Shown here in pieces: positions 3,719-14,368 of a stretch of 36,248 nucleotides of DNA. Under the pieces are notes generated by a model. The model saw nothing but the letters and a program-made list of their open reading frames with translations. It was not told where the DNA came from and did not search any database. The position numbers and the translations under genes were made by a program. The DNA lies in the NCBI GenBank assembly GCA_018263335.1, contig JADFCY010000002.1, positions 1-36,248 of the forward strand, read 5' to 3'. How positions within the stretch are numbered: position 1 is the first letter of the stretch; every line of letters begins with the position of its first letter. The stretch is from Methanolinea sp. Lineage in GTDB: Archaea > Halobacteriota > Methanomicrobia > Methanomicrobiales > Methanospirillaceae.

Positions 3719-3777
3719 GCGTCTCCACCGGCAATCAGACTCATTACCGGGAAAAGATACACTCCTCCTTCGCAGTC

Positions 3778-4170
3778 TCAGATCTCAACCCTTCGTGAAA
3801 GGGCGCGATGAGGGCAGATCTCGATACACCTTCCACAGAGCACACAGCGTTTCGCATCCACGCGGAGGCGGAACTCTTCGTCAAAGGAGAAGACCTCCTG
3901 CGGGCATATGCTGATGCATGCGCCGCAGTCCACGCACTCGTTCTCGTCAAGGCTTATCTCCTCCTCGAGGATGCGGACCGAGGCGCCGAGATCCGCCAGC
4001 TTGTCCTTGACGACCCGGCAGGACTCATCGGGAATATCGATCAGGGCCTCCCCTTCCGATGAATCTATGATGGCCCGCTCCACATTCACGAGCACCCCCG
4101 TGTCCCGTACTACCTGGGCAATGATGGGCTTTTTTCCTTCCTTTCGCGAGAAGGTCACTAGGAGTTTCAT
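3778..4170 (-). CDS. NIL-domain ferredoxin of homocysteine synthesis (MA1822-like)
   Basis: The 130-aa protein has an N-terminal NIL domain (about residues 1-75) followed by two [4Fe-4S] motifs, CVDCGACISICP and CVLCGRCIEICP. It overlaps the preceding gene by 4 nt (ATGA), and its ATG at 4170 has a GGGAGGTG ribosome binding site, so it is translationally coupled to the DUF39 gene. In Methanosarcina acetivorans the equivalent pair MA1821/MA1822 is required for making homocysteine from aspartate semialdehyde and sulfide. The ferredoxin is presumed to supply electrons or bind a sulfur intermediate. Assignment is by domain architecture and neighbour. Confidence 0.9.
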   Translation of the reverse strand: MKLLVTFSRKEGKKPIIAQVVRDTGVLVNVERAIIDSSEGEALIDIPDESCRVVKDKLADLGASVRILEEEISLDENECVDCGACISICPQEVFSFDEEFRLRVDAKRCVLCGRCIEICPHRALSRRVEI

Positions 4171-5675
4171 TTCAGCCACCTCCCGCCAAAGAGCTTCCCA
4201 AGGTCCATCGCAGTAAGCATCCCCACCACGCGGAACTCCCCATCGACGACGGGGAGGGCGCTGATGTTGTGTTTCTCGAGTTTCCTTACCGCGATATCCA
4301 CCGGTTCGTCCGCGGTGGTGGTAATCACCCTGCGGCGCATGATGTCCCGCACATGGGATATCTTCTCGGGGTTCACCACGGCTTTTGATACGTCATACGT
4401 GGTGACGATTCCCACAAGGACCCCTTTCCCATTGATGACCGGGAGGTGGTTAGTCTCACCTTTCAGGAGTTTTTTCGCAGCGTCCCTTATTGGCTCATCC
4501 TCGGAGATGGTGATCACCCTGCGGTCCATGATCTCAAGCACCCTCGGCCCCTGTGCGGTCTCTCTCATCGGCCCCACTCTCTTGGAGGGATCGATCCTCC
4601 GTGTCGGCAGGCAGACCGGCATCTTCCCGGATTCGATCCACTTCTTCAGATCGGATGCGACCCTTCTCGCCCTGCGGAGGCTGGAGAGCGAAGAGATACG
4701 CACCTCCTCACCGTTGATCTCCAGGTGGCCTGATTTGAGCATTGCATAGTTCACCTTCCCAATGGACGGTCGGTCCCGCGAGGGAACCCCGTAATCGATG
4801 ATATCCACCCATATATCCTCGTCCCTCACCGCGGTGCTTCTCACCGTCTCGATATCGAGGATGGGAATGGGGATGCCGAGCCCCACGTACAGCGTCACGC
4901 CATAGCCTGTCATCGTCGCGGCCCTGATATACTCCGTGTCCATCTGTTTCATGTCGGCGGTGACCATAAGGGTCCCAAACCCCCCAGCAGGGGATGCCTG
5001 GGTACCCTCTCCGATAACCATCCCGGGAGCCCCGCCGAGGAGACAGGGCACCCCTGACCCTATGACCCTGAAATGGGGATCGTTCGAGATGGGATTGAGG
5101 AGCCCTGCCCCCGAGTAGGTCACGTTTCCGCATCCCGGAAGGAGCATTCCCATGTAGGTGTGAAGGACACGATCGGTGGAATTGCATGCCGCGTTGTACC
5201 GCTGGTACCCGTTCCTGGGGTTGCACATGATCGCCTGGTTGAGGTTCTCGAGGAGTAGGTCAGTGGTGATCGTCCGCCGGGGGTAGCAGTCCGTGCCGCG
5301 GGAGATGGCCCTGAGTTCCACGGCTTTTCCGGCGATGAAATCCTCTATGACATGGGCGCCCCCGTAATTCTCCTCCCTAGTGGTGGACTGCTGGGTTGCG
5401 CCGATGAACGCATCGACTGCAGCAAGCCCCGCGTATGCTTCAACATCGTTCAACCAGACCCGCTCCATCCGAATAGGGGGATCCGCATGCCCGAAGTTGA
5501 AAAAGCCCCCTGACGAGCACATGGCGCCGAATGTCCCGGTAGTCACCACGTCCACTTCGGCGAGGGCGCCTTCCTCGCCGAGCTCGGCAACGAGGGCAGG
5601 CATCTCTTCTGCGGTGACCACCCTGGCGTTCCCGTCGCGAATCCGCTCGTTGATCTGATGGATGGTCTTCTTCAT
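4167..5675 (-). CDS. Homocysteine biosynthesis protein, L-aspartate semialdehyde sulfurtransferase (DUF39/COG1900 with CBS domains)
   Basis: The 502-aa protein has the COG1900 domain (residues ~1-370) and two C-terminal CBS domains (~380-500: ITISEDEPIRDAAKKLL and ITTTADEPVDIAVRKLE). Cysteines at C53 (MCSSGGFFNFGH) and C130 (RGTDCYPRR) match the two conserved cysteines of Methanosarcina MA1821. Together with the downstream NIL-ferredoxin it converts aspartate semialdehyde plus sulfide to homocysteine, a methionine precursor, in methanogens lacking the usual O-acylhomoserine route. The CBS pair may sense adenosyl ligands such as SAM; that is inference. A TATA box (TATAAATA, 5697-5704 on the minus strand) lies about 26 nt upstream, so the mRNA is probably leaderless. 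Confidence 0.9.
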   Translation of the reverse strand: MKKTIHQINERIRDGNARVVTAEEMPALVAELGEEGALAEVDVVTTGTFGAMCSSGGFFNFGHADPPIRMERVWLNDVEAYAGLAAVDAFIGATQQSTTREENYGGAHVIEDFIAGKAVELRAISRGTDCYPRRTITTDLLLENLNQAIMCNPRNGYQRYNAACNSTDRVLHTYMGMLLPGCGNVTYSGAGLLNPISNDPHFRVIGSGVPCLLGGAPGMVIGEGTQASPAGGFGTLMVTADMKQMDTEYIRAATMTGYGVTLYVGLGIPIPILDIETVRSTAVRDEDIWVDIIDYGVPSRDRPSIGKVNYAMLKSGHLEINGEEVRISSLSSLRRARRVASDLKKWIESGKMPVCLPTRRIDPSKRVGPMRETAQGPRVLEIMDRRVITISEDEPIRDAAKKLLKGETNHLPVINGKGVLVGIVTTYDVSKAVVNPEKISHVRDIMRRRVITTTADEPVDIAVRKLEKHNISALPVVDGEFRVVGMLTAMDLGKLFGGRWLK

Positions 5676-9591: not shown

Positions 9592-9613
9592 CCGTGGCGG
9601 CAGGGTGGAGCAG

Positions 9614-10252
9614 ATGAGTACTCTTCACGACGATTCTGGTGAAAAGGGACCTGTGTTTCAGGCAGGAGAGGTAGTCGTGCTCCAGCCAGGCGACGAGCGG
9701 GCCCAGAAGATCGGCAAGGCGATCGCCAGCCAGTCGGCGAACGATATCCTGCACGCCCTCCAGGAAATGCCAAAGACCGCCGGAGACCTGGCATCGGCGC
9801 TTTCCATGCCCATGGGAACCGTGAAGTACCACCTTGAGAACCTCCTTGACGCAGGTCTCGTCGAAGTCCGCGAGACACGCTACAGCGTGAAGGGGAGGCA
9901 GATAAAAGTCTACGGCATCAAGGACCAGCTCCTCATCGTCGCACCGAAGGTCCAGAACATCAGGTCCATTCTCCTCAAATATGCGACTCTCTTTGGAATT
10001 ATCGTCCTTGCTTCCCTCGCGGGATACGCGATGCTGCCGATCATGACTGCCCCTGCGGGGTTGGGGGGAGAGGATGTCGCACGGTTCCAGGGCGAGAAAG
10101 CGGTTGGAGTGATGGCCGAGCCTGCACCTGCAGCCGGCGTCCTGCCGCAGGGGCCGGCTCCCGACCCGGTCCTTGCGTTCTTCCTTGGGGGATGCCTGGT
10201 CCTCTTAATTCTCCTCGTATACGAGGTCGCAGTGTGGAGAAAAAAGATATGA
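9614..10252 (+). CDS. Membrane-anchored winged-helix (ArsR-like) regulator
   Basis: The 212-aa protein has a winged helix-turn-helix domain at about residues 28-100 (SANDILHALQEMPKTAGDLA, then MPMGTVKYHLENLLDAGLVE and a wing). Two transmembrane segments follow: ~118-140 (LFGIIVLASLAGYAMLPIM) and ~183-205 (VLAFFLGGCLVLLILLVYEV), separated by a ~45-residue Gly/Pro/Ala-rich stretch probably outside the cell. It ends in positive residues (WRKKI). This suggests a DNA-binding regulator tied to the membrane. The ATG at 9614 has GGTGGAG upstream and is preferred to the GTG at 9605. Target genes are unknown; the inverted-repeat region just downstream is one possible place to look. Confidence 0.82.
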   Translation: MSTLHDDSGEKGPVFQAGEVVVLQPGDERAQKIGKAIASQSANDILHALQEMPKTAGDLASALSMPMGTVKYHLENLLDAGLVEVRETRYSVKGRQIKVYGIKDQLLIVAPKVQNIRSILLKYATLFGIIVLASLAGYAMLPIMTAPAGLGGEDVARFQGEKAVGVMAEPAPAAGVLPQGPAPDPVLAFFLGGCLVLLILLVYEVAVWRKKI

Positions 10253-10587: not shown

Positions 10588-11385
10588 TCACTTCTTTTGC
10601 ATCCGACGTGCCAGCATTCCTGCAATGATCAGCGCTCCGCAGAACCCGGCAAGGGGTGCAGGCACGACAGTGGGGAGCGGCGTCTCCTCTGGGGGCTGGG
10701 TGATCACGGGGGATGCGATGGATGACTCCTCATGAGGGGTATCCACCATGAACTTTACCGTCGTCATGAATCCCCTGATATCATAGAAGTCCACGTAATA
10801 GTTGCCCCGCTCTGCGACCGGGATAGTCCTCGAGAAATATCCTTCATCCTTTCCTGTCCGGGTGGTGGTCCGGACATCCTGCGGGGGAAGCACCGCCCCC
10901 TGCGGCCCGCTGACTTTCAACGTGATCGTCGTGACTCCTGCCTTTGGGATATATCCCTCGATTCTGAGCGCTTCTCCCAGCACCTGATCTAGAGGGACAG
11001 TCAGCACAATCTCCCCTGATCGGTCCGTGATCCGGAAAACCTTTGTTGTGACCGAATCTGACCCGAGTTTTGAGCCGGGATCCGTCAGGAACGTTGCTTC
11101 TACCTTGTAGTCTCCCGAGAGCATACCGGATGTGGGAAAGGATTCCTGGAAAGATTTGGACTCATCAACGACGATTATCTTCCTTGCCACTTCCTCGGGA
11201 GTGGTTGGCTGCAGCCGGTAGATCACCAGGTCAAATACTGTCCCCACAGGAAAGGTGGTGGTCCCCGAGATCTCAAGCGGCGCACCTGCCCTGATCTCTG
11301 CAGGCGCGGATATTATGAGGACGTACGCCTGTGCGCTTCCGACCAGGAAGAGCAGGCAAAGGAGGAAAAAAACTGCCGATCTCAT
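10588..11385 (-). CDS. Secreted, membrane-anchored protein with beta-rich repeats
   Basis: The 265-aa protein starts with a signal peptide (MRSAVFFLLCLLFLVGSAQA) and ends in a Pro/Thr-rich linker (~220-240), a hydrophobic C-terminal anchor (APLAGFCGALIIAGMLA) and basic residues (RRMQKK). The body looks all-beta: an Ig-like segment (~25-115: ISAPAEIRAGAPLEISGTTT) and a second (~125-210: VPLDQVLGEALRIEGYIPKAG). This design is common for surface or adhesin-type proteins of Methanomicrobiales, with the C-terminus resembling archaeosortase-type sorting tails, although a clear PGF-type motif is not visible. The ATG at 11385 is chosen because a TATA-like AACTAATTATCC sits about 28 nt upstream; GTG at 11394 is an alternative. 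Specific function unknown. Confidence 0.8.
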   Translation of the reverse strand: MRSAVFFLLCLLFLVGSAQAYVLIISAPAEIRAGAPLEISGTTTFPVGTVFDLVIYRLQPTTPEEVARKIIVVDESKSFQESFPTSGMLSGDYKVEATFLTDPGSKLGSDSVTTKVFRITDRSGEIVLTVPLDQVLGEALRIEGYIPKAGVTTITLKVSGPQGAVLPPQDVRTTTRTGKDEGYFSRTIPVAERGNYYVDFYDIRGFMTTVKFMVDTPHEESSIASPVITQPPEETPLPTVVPAPLAGFCGALIIAGMLARRMQKK

Positions 11386-11408
11386 GTGATTCACTCAGTG
11401 GGCCGGGG

Positions 11409-11586: not shown

Positions 11587-11596
11587 CTATATAAAT
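11587..11596 (+). promoter_or_regulatory. TATA box for the small-protein operon
   Basis: CTATATAAAT is centred about 27 nt before the ATG at 11619, one of the clearest archaeal TATA boxes in the window. It predicts a leaderless mRNA for the first gene of the 11619-13661 operon. A 6-bp hairpin (TTCGGG 11504-11509 / CCCGAA 11519-11524) lies upstream. Confidence 0.6.
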
Positions 11597-11618: not shown

Positions 11619-12113
11619 ATGGATTCTTTAAAACTGAAGATACAGGAACGCGCTTTTCCGAGCAGGGGACGCGCAAGGTTGCATGAGACGTACCTCAAGC
11701 AACTGGGCATAAAAGAAGGTGACGAGGTGGAGATCTCCTTCGAAGGTGCAGCAAAAACCGGCATCGTCACAGTCTTTGCTGACACCCTGGTCGAGGAGGG
11801 TCATATACGCCTCAGCCCCCAGGATATCGCTGCCATCGGAGCTGCCCCCGGGTCGACCGTGACAGTCAAGAAAAGGCCTCCCCTGGTCGAGAGGGTGAAG
11901 AAAGGGGCGGAAGATACCGCAGGGAAAGTCAAGGAAGGAGCTGGCCAGGCCGCAGAGAAGATTAAGGGGGGAGCACCGCAGGCCGCAGGAAAGGTCAAGG
12001 AAGGTGCCGGCCAGGCTGCGGAAATCGTCAAAGGAGGAGCGGCTGCTGCAAAAGGATCCATCGAGAAGGGCACCGAGTCGGTGAAGAAGAAACTGCAGGA
12101 TAAAGATCTGTAA
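11619..12113 (+). CDS. CDC48-N-like double-psi-barrel protein with LEA-like 11-residue repeats
   Basis: The 164-aa protein has two parts. Residues 1-86 resemble the N-terminal double-psi beta-barrel of CDC48/VAT-type ATPases (RGRARLHETYLKQLGIKEGD then GHIRLSPQDIAAIGAAPGST), but no ATPase domain follows. Residues 93-158 are six consecutive 11-residue repeats of the form [VI]-K-x-G-A-x-x-A-A-x-K, resembling group 3 late-embryogenesis-abundant proteins: disordered, helix-prone, Lys/Ala/Gly-rich. This suggests a stress-protective or scaffold role; the barrel may bind a protein partner. A strong TATA box sits 27 nt before the ATG, so the mRNA is probably leaderless. It leads an operon of small coiled-coil proteins of unknown function. 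Confidence 0.75.
   Translation: MDSLKLKIQERAFPSRGRARLHETYLKQLGIKEGDEVEISFEGAAKTGIVTVFADTLVEEGHIRLSPQDIAAIGAAPGSTVTVKKRPPLVERVKKGAEDTAGKVKEGAGQAAEKIKGGAPQAAGKVKEGAGQAAEIVKGGAAAAKGSIEKGTESVKKKLQDKDL
11895..12092 (+). repeat. Six tandem 33-bp units encoding 11-residue LEA-like repeats
   Basis: This part of the preceding gene is exactly 6 x 33 bp. Units two and four (11928-11960 and 11994-12026) are nearly identical in DNA and protein (VKEGAGQAAE-); the others have diverged. The pattern points to past tandem duplication within the gene. Confidence 0.75.
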
Positions 12114-12129
12114 ACAGGGGAGGCGATCG

Positions 12130-12513
12130 ATGACAGATATCTGGGTGACCTTCAACCAATCATTCCCCTTCCTCCTGATCATATTCGGCCTGGTCATCTT
12201 TTACTTCATCATCCGCGAGATCCGGATCATGTATACAAAGACCAGGATTGCAAAGCTCGACCTCGAGAAGGAGAAACTCCAGCTGATCAAGGCGGATCTC
12301 GAGCAGAAAGGCCACCCATTCTTTCGCGTCTCTCCTGCAAAGCAGGAAGAGCTCCGGAGCCTTGACGAGGAGAACACGATGCTTGAGACCGACATCTTTG
12401 CCCAGCAGAGTGCGGTGGAGAAACGGATCCAGAGGCTCGAGAGCAAGGTCAAGCTGACCAAGCTCGACCGCATGATCGAGAAGATAAAAAAAGAAGAGGA
12501 CCGACTGGGGTGA
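12130..12513 (+). CDS. Membrane-anchored coiled-coil protein
   Basis: The 127-aa protein has one N-terminal membrane helix (residues ~12-30, FPFLLIIFGLVIFYFII) followed by a long charged helical region with heptad-like Leu spacing (~40-125) that is probably a cytoplasmic coiled coil. The region KLDLEKEKLQLIKADLEQKG and later EKRIQRLESKVKLTKLDRMI illustrate this. The ATG at 12130 has a GGGGAGGCGATCG ribosome binding site and begins 16 nt after the LEA-like gene; the next gene starts 6 nt after its stop. I recognise no family. It may be a membrane anchor for the small paralogous proteins downstream, but this is inference from operon context. Confidence 0.72.
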   Translation: MTDIWVTFNQSFPFLLIIFGLVIFYFIIREIRIMYTKTRIAKLDLEKEKLQLIKADLEQKGHPFFRVSPAKQEELRSLDEENTMLETDIFAQQSAVEKRIQRLESKVKLTKLDRMIEKIKKEEDRLG

Positions 12514-12519
12514 TGATGC

Positions 12520-12828
12520 ATGAATGTCTATGAAACACCTGAGGCAACCACCGGGAAGCATTCCTTCATCGACTCGATAAAGGAGATCCCTGGCTATATC
12601 GACCAGAGACTCCCCACGATGGACAAGGACTTTGACCTTTACTTTGACCAGAACCTGCCAGCAATCATCGAAGAGTGGGGCCTTCTCAGCAGCGTCCATC
12701 TCACGCAGCTCGAACGGCGGCTCACGAGGGTCCACCAGCAGATAGATTACCTGGAGAAGGAGCGGACTGCGCTGGAAGGGAGAGCCGCCAGGCTTGAGAA
12801 AGAACTCAAAATACTGGAGGGATTATGA
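12520..12828 (+). CDS. Small protein with Y-x-D...I-E-E-W motif and coiled coil (paralogue 1)
   Basis: This 102-aa protein has an N-terminal region with two related turns, GYIDQRLPTMDKDF and LYFDQNLPAIIEEWGL, and a C-terminal coiled coil (~63-100: LERRLTRVHQQIDYLEKE). The second turn matches the motif shared with the next two genes (YIDRRMKYLIDEWNL and YLDRRFDAMIDEWSL). There is no signal peptide or membrane segment. Its stop overlaps the next start (ATGA, 12825-12828), showing translational coupling. No known family is recognised. The three paralogues are probably descended from one gene by duplication and may assemble together through their coiled coils. Confidence 0.7.
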   Translation: MNVYETPEATTGKHSFIDSIKEIPGYIDQRLPTMDKDFDLYFDQNLPAIIEEWGLLSSVHLTQLERRLTRVHQQIDYLEKERTALEGRAARLEKELKILEGL

Positions 12829-13046
12829 AGGGACTGGACTACATGGAGCGTTATATCGACCGCCGCATGAAGTATCTCATCGATGAATGGAACCTTGCCA
12901 CAAGAAACGACCTTGGTGACCTTTATGCGAGGCTCCATGCAATCGAGGACGAGGCGAGGAGATGCGCCGGATTCGAGGCAACCGCGTCTGCCAAGATGAC
13001 CGAACTTGAGAAGCGCCTCCTGCACCTGAAGGAAGTGATGAAATGA
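12825..13046 (+). CDS. Small protein with YIDRR...IDEW motif (paralogue 2)
   Basis: The 73-aa protein is almost only the shared module: the motif YIDRRMKYLIDEWNL at residues 10-24, then a helical segment that ends as a short coiled coil (MTELEKRLLHLKEVMK). It overlaps both neighbours by 4 nt (ATGA at each end), so its synthesis is coupled to them. There is no membrane segment. The tryptophan and the flanking acidic residues are conserved with the other two copies, suggesting a binding surface. Function unknown. Confidence 0.7.
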   Translation: MKGLDYMERYIDRRMKYLIDEWNLATRNDLGDLYARLHAIEDEARRCAGFEATASAKMTELEKRLLHLKEVMK

Positions 13047-13381
13047 CCGTCGTCGAAGCGCTTCTGATCCTCCTGCTTATCCTCCTTATCGCGTTCATCA
13101 TCTACTACTACTTCCGCGGTTCATCCGGCAAACTTGAGATATCCCGGCCGATGGAGAGCAGGATTGATGAATACCTCGACCGGCGTTTCGATGCAATGAT
13201 CGACGAATGGTCACTTATCCGGAAGCCCCAGGCGCAAAAGTTCAGGGACGAGAAGATTGCCGACATTTCCCAGGAAGAGAAGAGGATGGCCTCCCTGACC
13301 GGGTTCGAGAAAGAATTCGGGGAGAAGATGGCCAGCCTGGAGGAACGGCTTGAGACTCTGGAAAAGCAGGTCCTCAGATAG
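13043..13381 (+). CDS. Membrane-anchored protein with YLDRR...IDEW motif (paralogue 3)
   Basis: The 112-aa protein adds an N-terminal membrane helix (residues ~4-24, EALLILLLILLIAFIIYYYF) to the shared module: motif YLDRRFDAMIDEWSL at about 44-58, then a C-terminal coiled coil (FGEKMASLEERLETLEKQVL). The N-terminus is outside or short, so the motif and coil are likely cytoplasmic. The start overlaps the previous stop by 4 nt. The combination of one membrane-bound and two soluble paralogues suggests a hetero-oligomer at the membrane, possibly with the 12130-12513 product. This is inference; no function is known. Confidence 0.72.
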   Translation: MTVVEALLILLLILLIAFIIYYYFRGSSGKLEISRPMESRIDEYLDRRFDAMIDEWSLIRKPQAQKFRDEKIADISQEEKRMASLTGFEKEFGEKMASLEERLETLEKQVLR

Positions 13382-13412
13382 CGGGCGGCCCGAGAGAGAG
13401 AAGGGAGACCTG

Positions 13413-13661
13413 GTGTCCCGGCTCAAAAAGGACATCCCACGGATGAGGAACCCGGGAGAGCCCCCGGAGAAGGATCCGGCACACTTCTCGGGGTTCCTCT
13501 GCGACCTCTGCAACAGCCCGTTCGCTTACCATGAACTCAGGCAGTGTATCCTGTGCGGACGGTGGGCATGCCAGTCCTGCTGGACAGAGGAATTTTATGT
13601 GTGCAACTCATGCAATGGGATGATCACGCTGCATACCCTTTTGGGTAAAAGCACGAAATAA
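13413..13661 (+). CDS. Small zinc-binding protein (treble-clef/RING-like cysteines)
   Basis: The 82-aa protein carries four C-x-x-C pairs: CDLC, CILC, a CQSC near the middle and CNSC near the end, with intervening His/Tyr residues. The arrangement suggests two zinc sites of treble-clef, B-box or RING-like type. The GTG at 13413 is chosen because an AAGGGAG ribosome binding site lies just upstream; a longer frame from 13350 would overlap the previous gene without such a site. It is the last gene of the operon and is followed by an eight-T run at 13701. It might recruit a partner to the complex or bind nucleic acid; neither is shown. Confidence 0.68.
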   Translation: MSRLKKDIPRMRNPGEPPEKDPAHFSGFLCDLCNSPFAYHELRQCILCGRWACQSCWTEEFYVCNSCNGMITLHTLLGKSTK

Positions 13662-13708: not shown

Positions 13709-13798
13709 AGGGGCCGCGTGTATCATCCATAGGCCGCAGGGGTTTTTTGCGGCACAACCCCGATAGATTCATACACGGGGGATGCGCCATACTTGGTT

Positions 13799-14368
13799 AT
13801 GCCTGACACGGTAGTTGTGGTCACCGCATGCGACAGGGGGTGGGGTGCACTTCTTGTTCTCGGTCTCTTCTCGATCCTCTTTGGGGTCCTGATGCTCCTC
13901 TTCCCCGATCTCACGGCGATTGCGGTTGTGACGCTTATCGGGGTGCTCGTCATCATCCTCGGTGCCATTATGCTCCTCTCGTCCCTCTTTTTGCCTGCCG
14001 GGGATTCACGGTCAACTCTCCTCCTCTTTGGAGGCCTGGCAGGGCTGCTGATTGGAGTGGGAATGATCGTGTACCCCATCCTTGCGGGTGCCGTGGTGAC
14101 CGAGATCATCGGGGCGGTTATCTTTGTCATCGGCATGATGCAGATGCTCTTCGGTCTGGTCTTTGAGGGGGACAGAAGGAGAGCCCTCTATTTCATCTCG
14201 GGGATACTCTCCATCATATTCGCCCTGCTGATTATATTCTACCCCTTCATCGGCAGCCTTATCCTTTTTGGGTATCTCCTCGCCATCTACTTCCTTCTCC
14301 TGGGGATACTGATGGTGATCGCCGGATACCTGAGCCATGCATTCTGCAAGAGGTATGCAGAATCCTGA
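13799..14368 (+). CDS. HdeD-family (DUF308) membrane protein
   Basis: The 189-aa protein is almost entirely hydrophobic with about six membrane helices arranged as three similar hairpins, each with the DUF308 pattern of a Gly-rich helix, a Pro-containing turn and a second helix (LFGVLMLLFPDLTAIAVVTL; IGVGMIVYPILAGAVVTEII; IFALLIIFYPFIGSLILFGY). This matches the HdeD/DUF308 family; Escherichia coli HdeD is linked to acid resistance at high cell density, but the archaeal role is unknown. The ATG at 13799 is preferred to the TTG at 13793. It is convergent with the next gene. Confidence 0.85.
   Translation: MPDTVVVVTACDRGWGALLVLGLFSILFGVLMLLFPDLTAIAVVTLIGVLVIILGAIMLLSSLFLPAGDSRSTLLLFGGLAGLLIGVGMIVYPILAGAVVTEIIGAVIFVIGMMQMLFGLVFEGDRRRALYFISGILSIIFALLIIFYPFIGSLILFGYLLAIYFLLLGILMVIAGYLSHAFCKRYAES

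Follow-up and report, generated by a model that had tools for sequence, protein, structure and literature searches.

The six small genes that lie close-packed on the forward strand at positions 11619-13661 of the window (the whole 36,248-nucleotide stretch of Methanolinea sp. DNA that was analysed) raise the question of whether they constitute a single unit, and of what such a unit might do. The host genome is 2.03 Mb in size and 99% complete, and the named genomes nearest to it are MAGs of Methanolinea and Methanoregulaceae. All six open reading frames described in the initial annotation are present. The first, g1 (11619-12113), encodes the lead protein of 164 aa, in which a CDC48_N-type barrel is joined to a tail of 11-residue repeats. 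It is followed by g2 (12130-12513, 127 aa), by the three motif proteins g3 (12520-12828, 102 aa), g4 (12825-13046, 73 aa) and g5 (13043-13381, 112 aa), and by g6 (13350-13661, 103 aa), which encodes a predicted binuclear zinc finger. The TATA box noted earlier, TATATAAAT (11588-11596, forward strand), lies about 29 bases 5' of the g1 ATG, which suggests that the transcript is near-leaderless. Comparable elements are found in relatives: of 76 regions upstream of g1, 33 contain a strict TATA-like word between -50 and -18, as against 1 of 80 for g3 and 0 of 87 for g5.

The two ATGA overlaps described in the initial annotation are confirmed for g3/g4 and g4/g5, and the same -4 spacing is the commonest among relatives (51 and 60 loci, respectively). 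A third overlap, at 32 nt the longest of the cassette, joins g5 to g6, whose TTG start codon lies within g5, 6 bases after a Shine-Dalgarno-like GGAGG in the g5 3' end (13339-13343, forward strand). The g6 start codon is ATG or TTG in 74 of 76 loci, in most of which a GGAGG-like stretch precedes it within the LEE/LEA-R-L codons of g5, and the N-terminus M-x-L/F-W-K is common to the relatives. The recurrence of this N-terminus and the embedded GGAGG indicate that the true start of g6 is the TTG at 13350 and not a codon further downstream. A programmed frameshift fusing g5 to g6 was ruled out, since a stop lies just upstream in the g6 frame in several loci and a start codon follows the embedded GGAGG in nearly all. 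Translational coupling by the -4 overlaps and the embedded GGAGG counts in favour of the single scaffold proposed below.

To what extent the six genes are conserved as a set was assessed in loci taken around PF14445 matches, from named species genomes and from extra copies, all searched with a profile for each of the six families; 89 loci remained once recognised duplicates had been removed. The order 1-2-3-4-5-6 is identical in 69 of these 89 Methanomicrobiales loci. Nine others are cut by contig ends (four of them, one genome being represented twice, also lack g6), two have split genes, one is truncated to genes 1-4, and eight are five-gene loci without the RING-annotated g6, a figure that is an upper bound because some derive from one genome counted twice (e.g. 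L108 with L124, and L097 with L125). RING-less copies occur in genomes that also carry a six-gene copy (G222, G229, G126), and the existence of such second copies of genes 1-5 (L097, L105/L126, L108/L124, L109/L123) marks those five genes as the core. Instances of g2 number 81 among the examined loci. The split genes are found in two draft records, where frame breaks interrupt g2 and g6 (L084, 4051-5640) or g1 (L066, 3489-3998), through either assembly error or decay.

At the level of genomes, g5 and g6 (above cut-off) are each present in 90 of the 232 genomes of the class, and a comparison of the two genome lists shows 88 with both; g5 occurs without g6 in G183 and G220, and g6 without g5 in G132 and G133. 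The neighbourhood comparison suggested in the initial annotation thus finds the motif proteins not scattered but fixed in order and almost perfectly co-occurring. Furthermore, the flanking genes mostly differ from genus to genus, which argues that the cassette is held together by selection and not by general synteny. Cultured species that carry it include Methanospirillum stamsii, Methanogenium marinum and Methanogenium cariaci. Across 393 genomes of the phylum, the full g5 profile matched only in Methanomicrobiales, and in about 85,000 species genomes, scanned with a single peptide pattern that remote relatives could escape, matches came only from Methanomicrobiales or from records named just Euryarchaeota. 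Apparent occurrences of PF14445 elsewhere were rejected as weak partial matches (21-32 bits) that look like unrelated zinc fingers, and an origin in a virus or mobile element was likewise set aside, as viral contigs gave no relative. More than half of Methanomicrobiales lack the cassette, so that its function must be dispensable there.

These comparisons strongly support the view that the six genes would act as one unit. From conservation and paralogy we infer that their products form a complex, co-conservation being in itself no proof of one. The reading that we favour, with a probability of roughly 55%, is that the cassette specifies an uncharacterised, cytoplasmic, membrane-attached coiled-coil scaffold with a lead subunit that lies on the lipid surface and a zinc finger that recruits, perhaps serving in envelope maintenance.

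The lead protein begins with a double-psi beta-barrel of the Cdc48-Nn type (about residues 5-85). The window protein matches CDC48_N with E 5e-8 at 33.5 bits, slightly under the curated cut-off of 35.1; 27 of 30 g1 relatives match as well (best 3.5e-9), and PDB profile matches are to double-psi barrel proteins and Cdc48. The remainder of the protein (11883-12110, forward strand) is an amphipathic region in which identity at a lag of 11 residues reaches 27 of 70 positions, and at a lag of 22, 24 of 59, with the hydrophobic moment at its maximum, among the periods tried, at 3.667 residues per turn. Such 11/3 geometry is typical of helices on lipid surfaces, for example those of alpha-synuclein and the apolipoproteins, and g1 would accordingly rest on the membrane by this tail. 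The description of g1 as a CDC48-N-like barrel with LEA-type repeats therefore holds, sharpened to a double-psi barrel followed by an 11/3 amphipathic helix. The tail shares its 11-residue period and its moment maximum with LEA, apolipoprotein and alpha-synuclein repeats, but has no family match over a curated cut-off: CsbD reaches 15.9 bits against a cut-off of 40, leaving the periodicity as the only feature in common with the LEA/CsbD family. Apolipoprotein/ApoLp-III matches from g1 relatives are weak, compositionally biased and, for the Pfam models, under curated cut-offs, and alpha-synuclein and apolipoprotein are among the weak PDB matches. The likeness is probably convergent.

In 6 of the 30 g1 members, from several lineages, a TrkA_C domain is present at the C-terminus (up to 4e-12); loci L038, L039, L048 and L051 carry g1 genes with this addition. 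The domain is a possible ligand-binding site, and in the proposed scaffold the barrel, together with TrkA_C in those lineages, may be the docking or sensing part. The same domain invites a different reading, in which TrkA_C would be a nucleotide sensor and the coiled coils would control a channel, making the cassette a regulator of ion transport or osmotic balance. By translation reading, a chloride-channel-like gene lies near RING-less copies, which would suit such a role; its identity is putative, however, most g1 proteins have no TrkA_C, and the invariant core contains no channel, so that we consider a regulator of this kind unlikely.

The barrel itself raises the possibility of an adaptor to the archaeal Cdc48/VAT unfoldase, in a ubiquitin-free process resembling ERAD, with g1 mimicking the Cdc48 N domain and g6 reading clients. 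Residues 14-85 do resemble the Nn double-psi barrel of Cdc48/VAT, matching CDC48_N and solved double-psi barrel proteins, the cassette supplies membrane anchors, and in one RING-less copy (L121) an HtpX-like membrane protease gene, assigned by translation reading, lies just 3' (3766-4644). Unlike the Cdc48/VAT N domain, though, g1 has only the Nn half, without the Nc subdomain or an ATPase and joined instead to an amphipathic tail; the family search gave neither a CDC48_2 (Nc) nor an AAA match for it, and no AAA gene was recognised next to the cassette. Moreover, double-psi barrels are generic, and Molydop_binding, FeoA and MazE also match that of g1. An unfoldase adaptor hence seems distinctly improbable.

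The core of the proposed scaffold would be formed by g2-g5. A shared 15-residue motif followed by a coiled coil had been noted in g3, g4 and g5, and it is present in all three and conserved among their relatives. In g3 there are two adjacent motif-like 15-mers, a degenerate copy at residues 26-40 (YIDQRLPTMDKDFDL) and a good one at residues 41-55 (YFDQNLPAIIEEWGL; 12640-12684), the latter with E52 and W53 invariant over 60 sequences; a long coiled-coil helix follows. The motif is YIDRRMKYLIDEWNL in g4 (12852-12896), which is the minimal form, and YLDRRFDAMIDEWSL in g5 (13172-13216). Profile comparison with hhalign (probability 98%, E 1e-12 to 3e-15) places the three as true paralogues. The AF2 model of g3 has helices at residues 33-53 and 58-101 with a break after the motif; it is of moderate confidence (pLDDT 72, and below 50 for the N-terminal 30 residues), all structures were predicted as single chains, and a fold search with the g3 model gave no match.

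While g3 and g4 are soluble, g2 and g5 each possess a single N-terminal hydrophobic span, in agreement with the earlier assignment of membrane anchors to one motif protein and one other. Basic residues follow both spans, and the positive-inside rule thus predicts a cytoplasmic position for the coiled coils of g2 and g5. Coiled-coil matches of g2 are all sub-threshold, and the coiled-coil and amphipathic-repeat matches of the cassette proteins in general are compositionally biased. In our model, g2 and g5 would be single-span anchors with their coiled coils directed toward the cytoplasm, to which g3 and g4, as soluble paralogues of g5, would attach via the motif helix common to the paralogues and via the coiled coils to give a hetero-oligomer. 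That the last five proteins belong to no recognised family stands for g2-g5, which have no Pfam or NCBIfam entry, but not for g6.

The most frequent Pfam match of g3 is Phasin, a family of granule-surface proteins (34 of 60 members, best E 2e-5), which also speaks for the favoured scaffold, and PHA_granule_1 is matched by g4 in 3 of 21. Together with the amphipathic tail of g1, these weak matches could be read as a coat on a storage granule or lipid body, with phasin-like g3-g5 and perilipin-like g1. The g3 protein indeed shares with phasins (PF05597, TIGR01837) the arrangement of helix, break and coiled coil. However, among the matches listed the Phasin profile scores 15-17 bits against a cut-off of 28.8, two subunits cross the membrane in a manner that a granule monolayer would not accommodate, and class III PHA synthase is above cut-off in 1 of the 232 genomes of the class and absent from the host genome. 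On this last ground a PHA granule was dismissed, and a granule or lipid-body coat is very improbable. The sole full-length class III PHA synthase (G001:C2:140042-141073) belongs to a Methanomicrobiales genome without the cassette.

The zinc-binding cysteines reported for the last protein number eight (about 13500-13613) and are predicted to form a binuclear finger. The protein matches Pfam PF14445, Prok-RING_2, with E 1e-26 (92-93 bits against a cut-off of 22.4), as do all 73 aligned relatives; the entry spans the zinc finger alone. The ligand spacing, CX2C-X11-CX2C-X4-CX2C-X7-CX2C, is identical in 73 of 76 members. RING fingers have the spacing C3-X1-3-H/C4-X2-3-C5. The corresponding segment of g6 is C3-X2-C4-X4-C5, with X2 and X4 in 74 of 76, and thus departs from the RING pattern. 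Classical RING families had no match among the 73 g6 relatives searched, and FYVE_2 matched 29 and FYVE 10 of the 73, the window member being under the cut-off. In the Foldseek ranking of the AF2 model (pLDDT 84), endofin, EEA1, melanophilin, PHF23, Hrs and CARP2 come at the top, although the matches are non-significant (E of at least 0.28, probability up to 0.91). Since the treble clef is common to RING, FYVE and PHD fingers (PMC4506424), the border between RING and FYVE/PHD is not sharp. By ligand spacing, FYVE_2 matches and fold ranking, g6 nevertheless appears nearer to FYVE/PHD than to RING.

A RING-type E3 would make the cassette a membrane-bound module for ubiquitin-like conjugation, connected by the g1 barrel with an AAA unfoldase and with the proteasome. 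The Pfam match is above cut-off, though RING in name only, a hydrophobic residue (L53) lies between C51 and C54, and the g1 barrel is of the Cdc48-N type; the host genome also encodes one ThiF/E1-like and one JAB protein, both distant from the cassette. Such proteins are frequent in archaea and not diagnostic. The FYVE/PHD-like spacing and predicted fold, with no E2 found, make a ubiquitin ligase role of g6 unlikely; E2 (UQ_con) was detected in 0 of the 232 genomes of the class, a search in which no control genome matched either, no Ubl, E1, E2 or JAB gene was recognised within the cassette, and copies without g6 occur, all of which renders a conjugation module the least probable reading of the locus. 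The name "RING" on g6, and the ubiquitin role that it implies, deserve to be rechecked.

Within the membrane-attached scaffold, g6 as a FYVE/PHD-like finger would instead bring in a further partner, and may be absent from second copies. It resembles FYVE and Rab-effector (FYVE_2) fingers such as those of EEA1, endofin and melanophilin in its eight-cysteine spacing with CX2CG-X3-C and in its nearest predicted fold, and the cassette resembles the systems in which they act in having coiled-coil partners at membranes. It differs from them in that finger and coiled coils are separate polypeptides, in that the fold scores are below significance, and in that the basic RRHHCR phosphoinositide-binding motif of FYVE is absent, the g6 family consensus there being ELRQCxLCGRW. 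It is doubtful, but conceivable, that paralogous coiled-coil anchors, a lipid-surface protein of the alpha-synuclein/perilipin type and a FYVE-like finger together build one tether or coat, as an archaeal membrane-organising machine; if true, this would be a parallel to eukaryotic membrane tethers of coiled coils and FYVE fingers that arose within one methanogen order.

The zinc finger already has a Pfam entry and the barrel fold is familiar, but g2-g5, four of the six, belong to no Pfam or NCBIfam family, and yet the cassette is intact across divergent genera. We are aware of no characterised system that combines these parts. The cassette is a compact candidate for an archaeal membrane scaffold. 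A literature search yielded no paper on the six-gene cassette; a 2011 survey by Burroughs, Iyer and Aravind, which lay outside that search, is said to be the source of the Prok-RING families and may list this gene neighbourhood.

The likeliest task of such a scaffold would be to organise or protect the cell envelope. The suggestion in the initial annotation of a link to stress draws its evidence from neighbouring genes, found in a minority of loci: DUF308 in five genera, and HtpX-like and phosphoesterase genes in some. In the window, g7 (13793-14368, forward strand) encodes a DUF308 (HdeD-like) membrane protein (PF03729, E 7e-15) outside the invariant core, and DUF308 lies near the cassette in 18 deduplicated loci, with arrangements that vary; the host genome has three DUF308 genes in total. 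Calcineurin-like phosphoesterase genes are near the cassette in several lineages, a weaker signal than DUF308 because the host genome has eight of them; three RING-less copies lie 80-105 bases from a convergent gene of this type. On the other side of the cassette, a divergent putative secreted or membrane protein is encoded on the reverse strand (10588-11394) and is also a neighbour in near relatives and at one distant locus (L043). Further upstream, directly after alaS, a gene at 9605-10252 encodes a protein that is winged-helix-like at its N-terminus and contains two hydrophobic spans; the gene is syntenic in near relatives.
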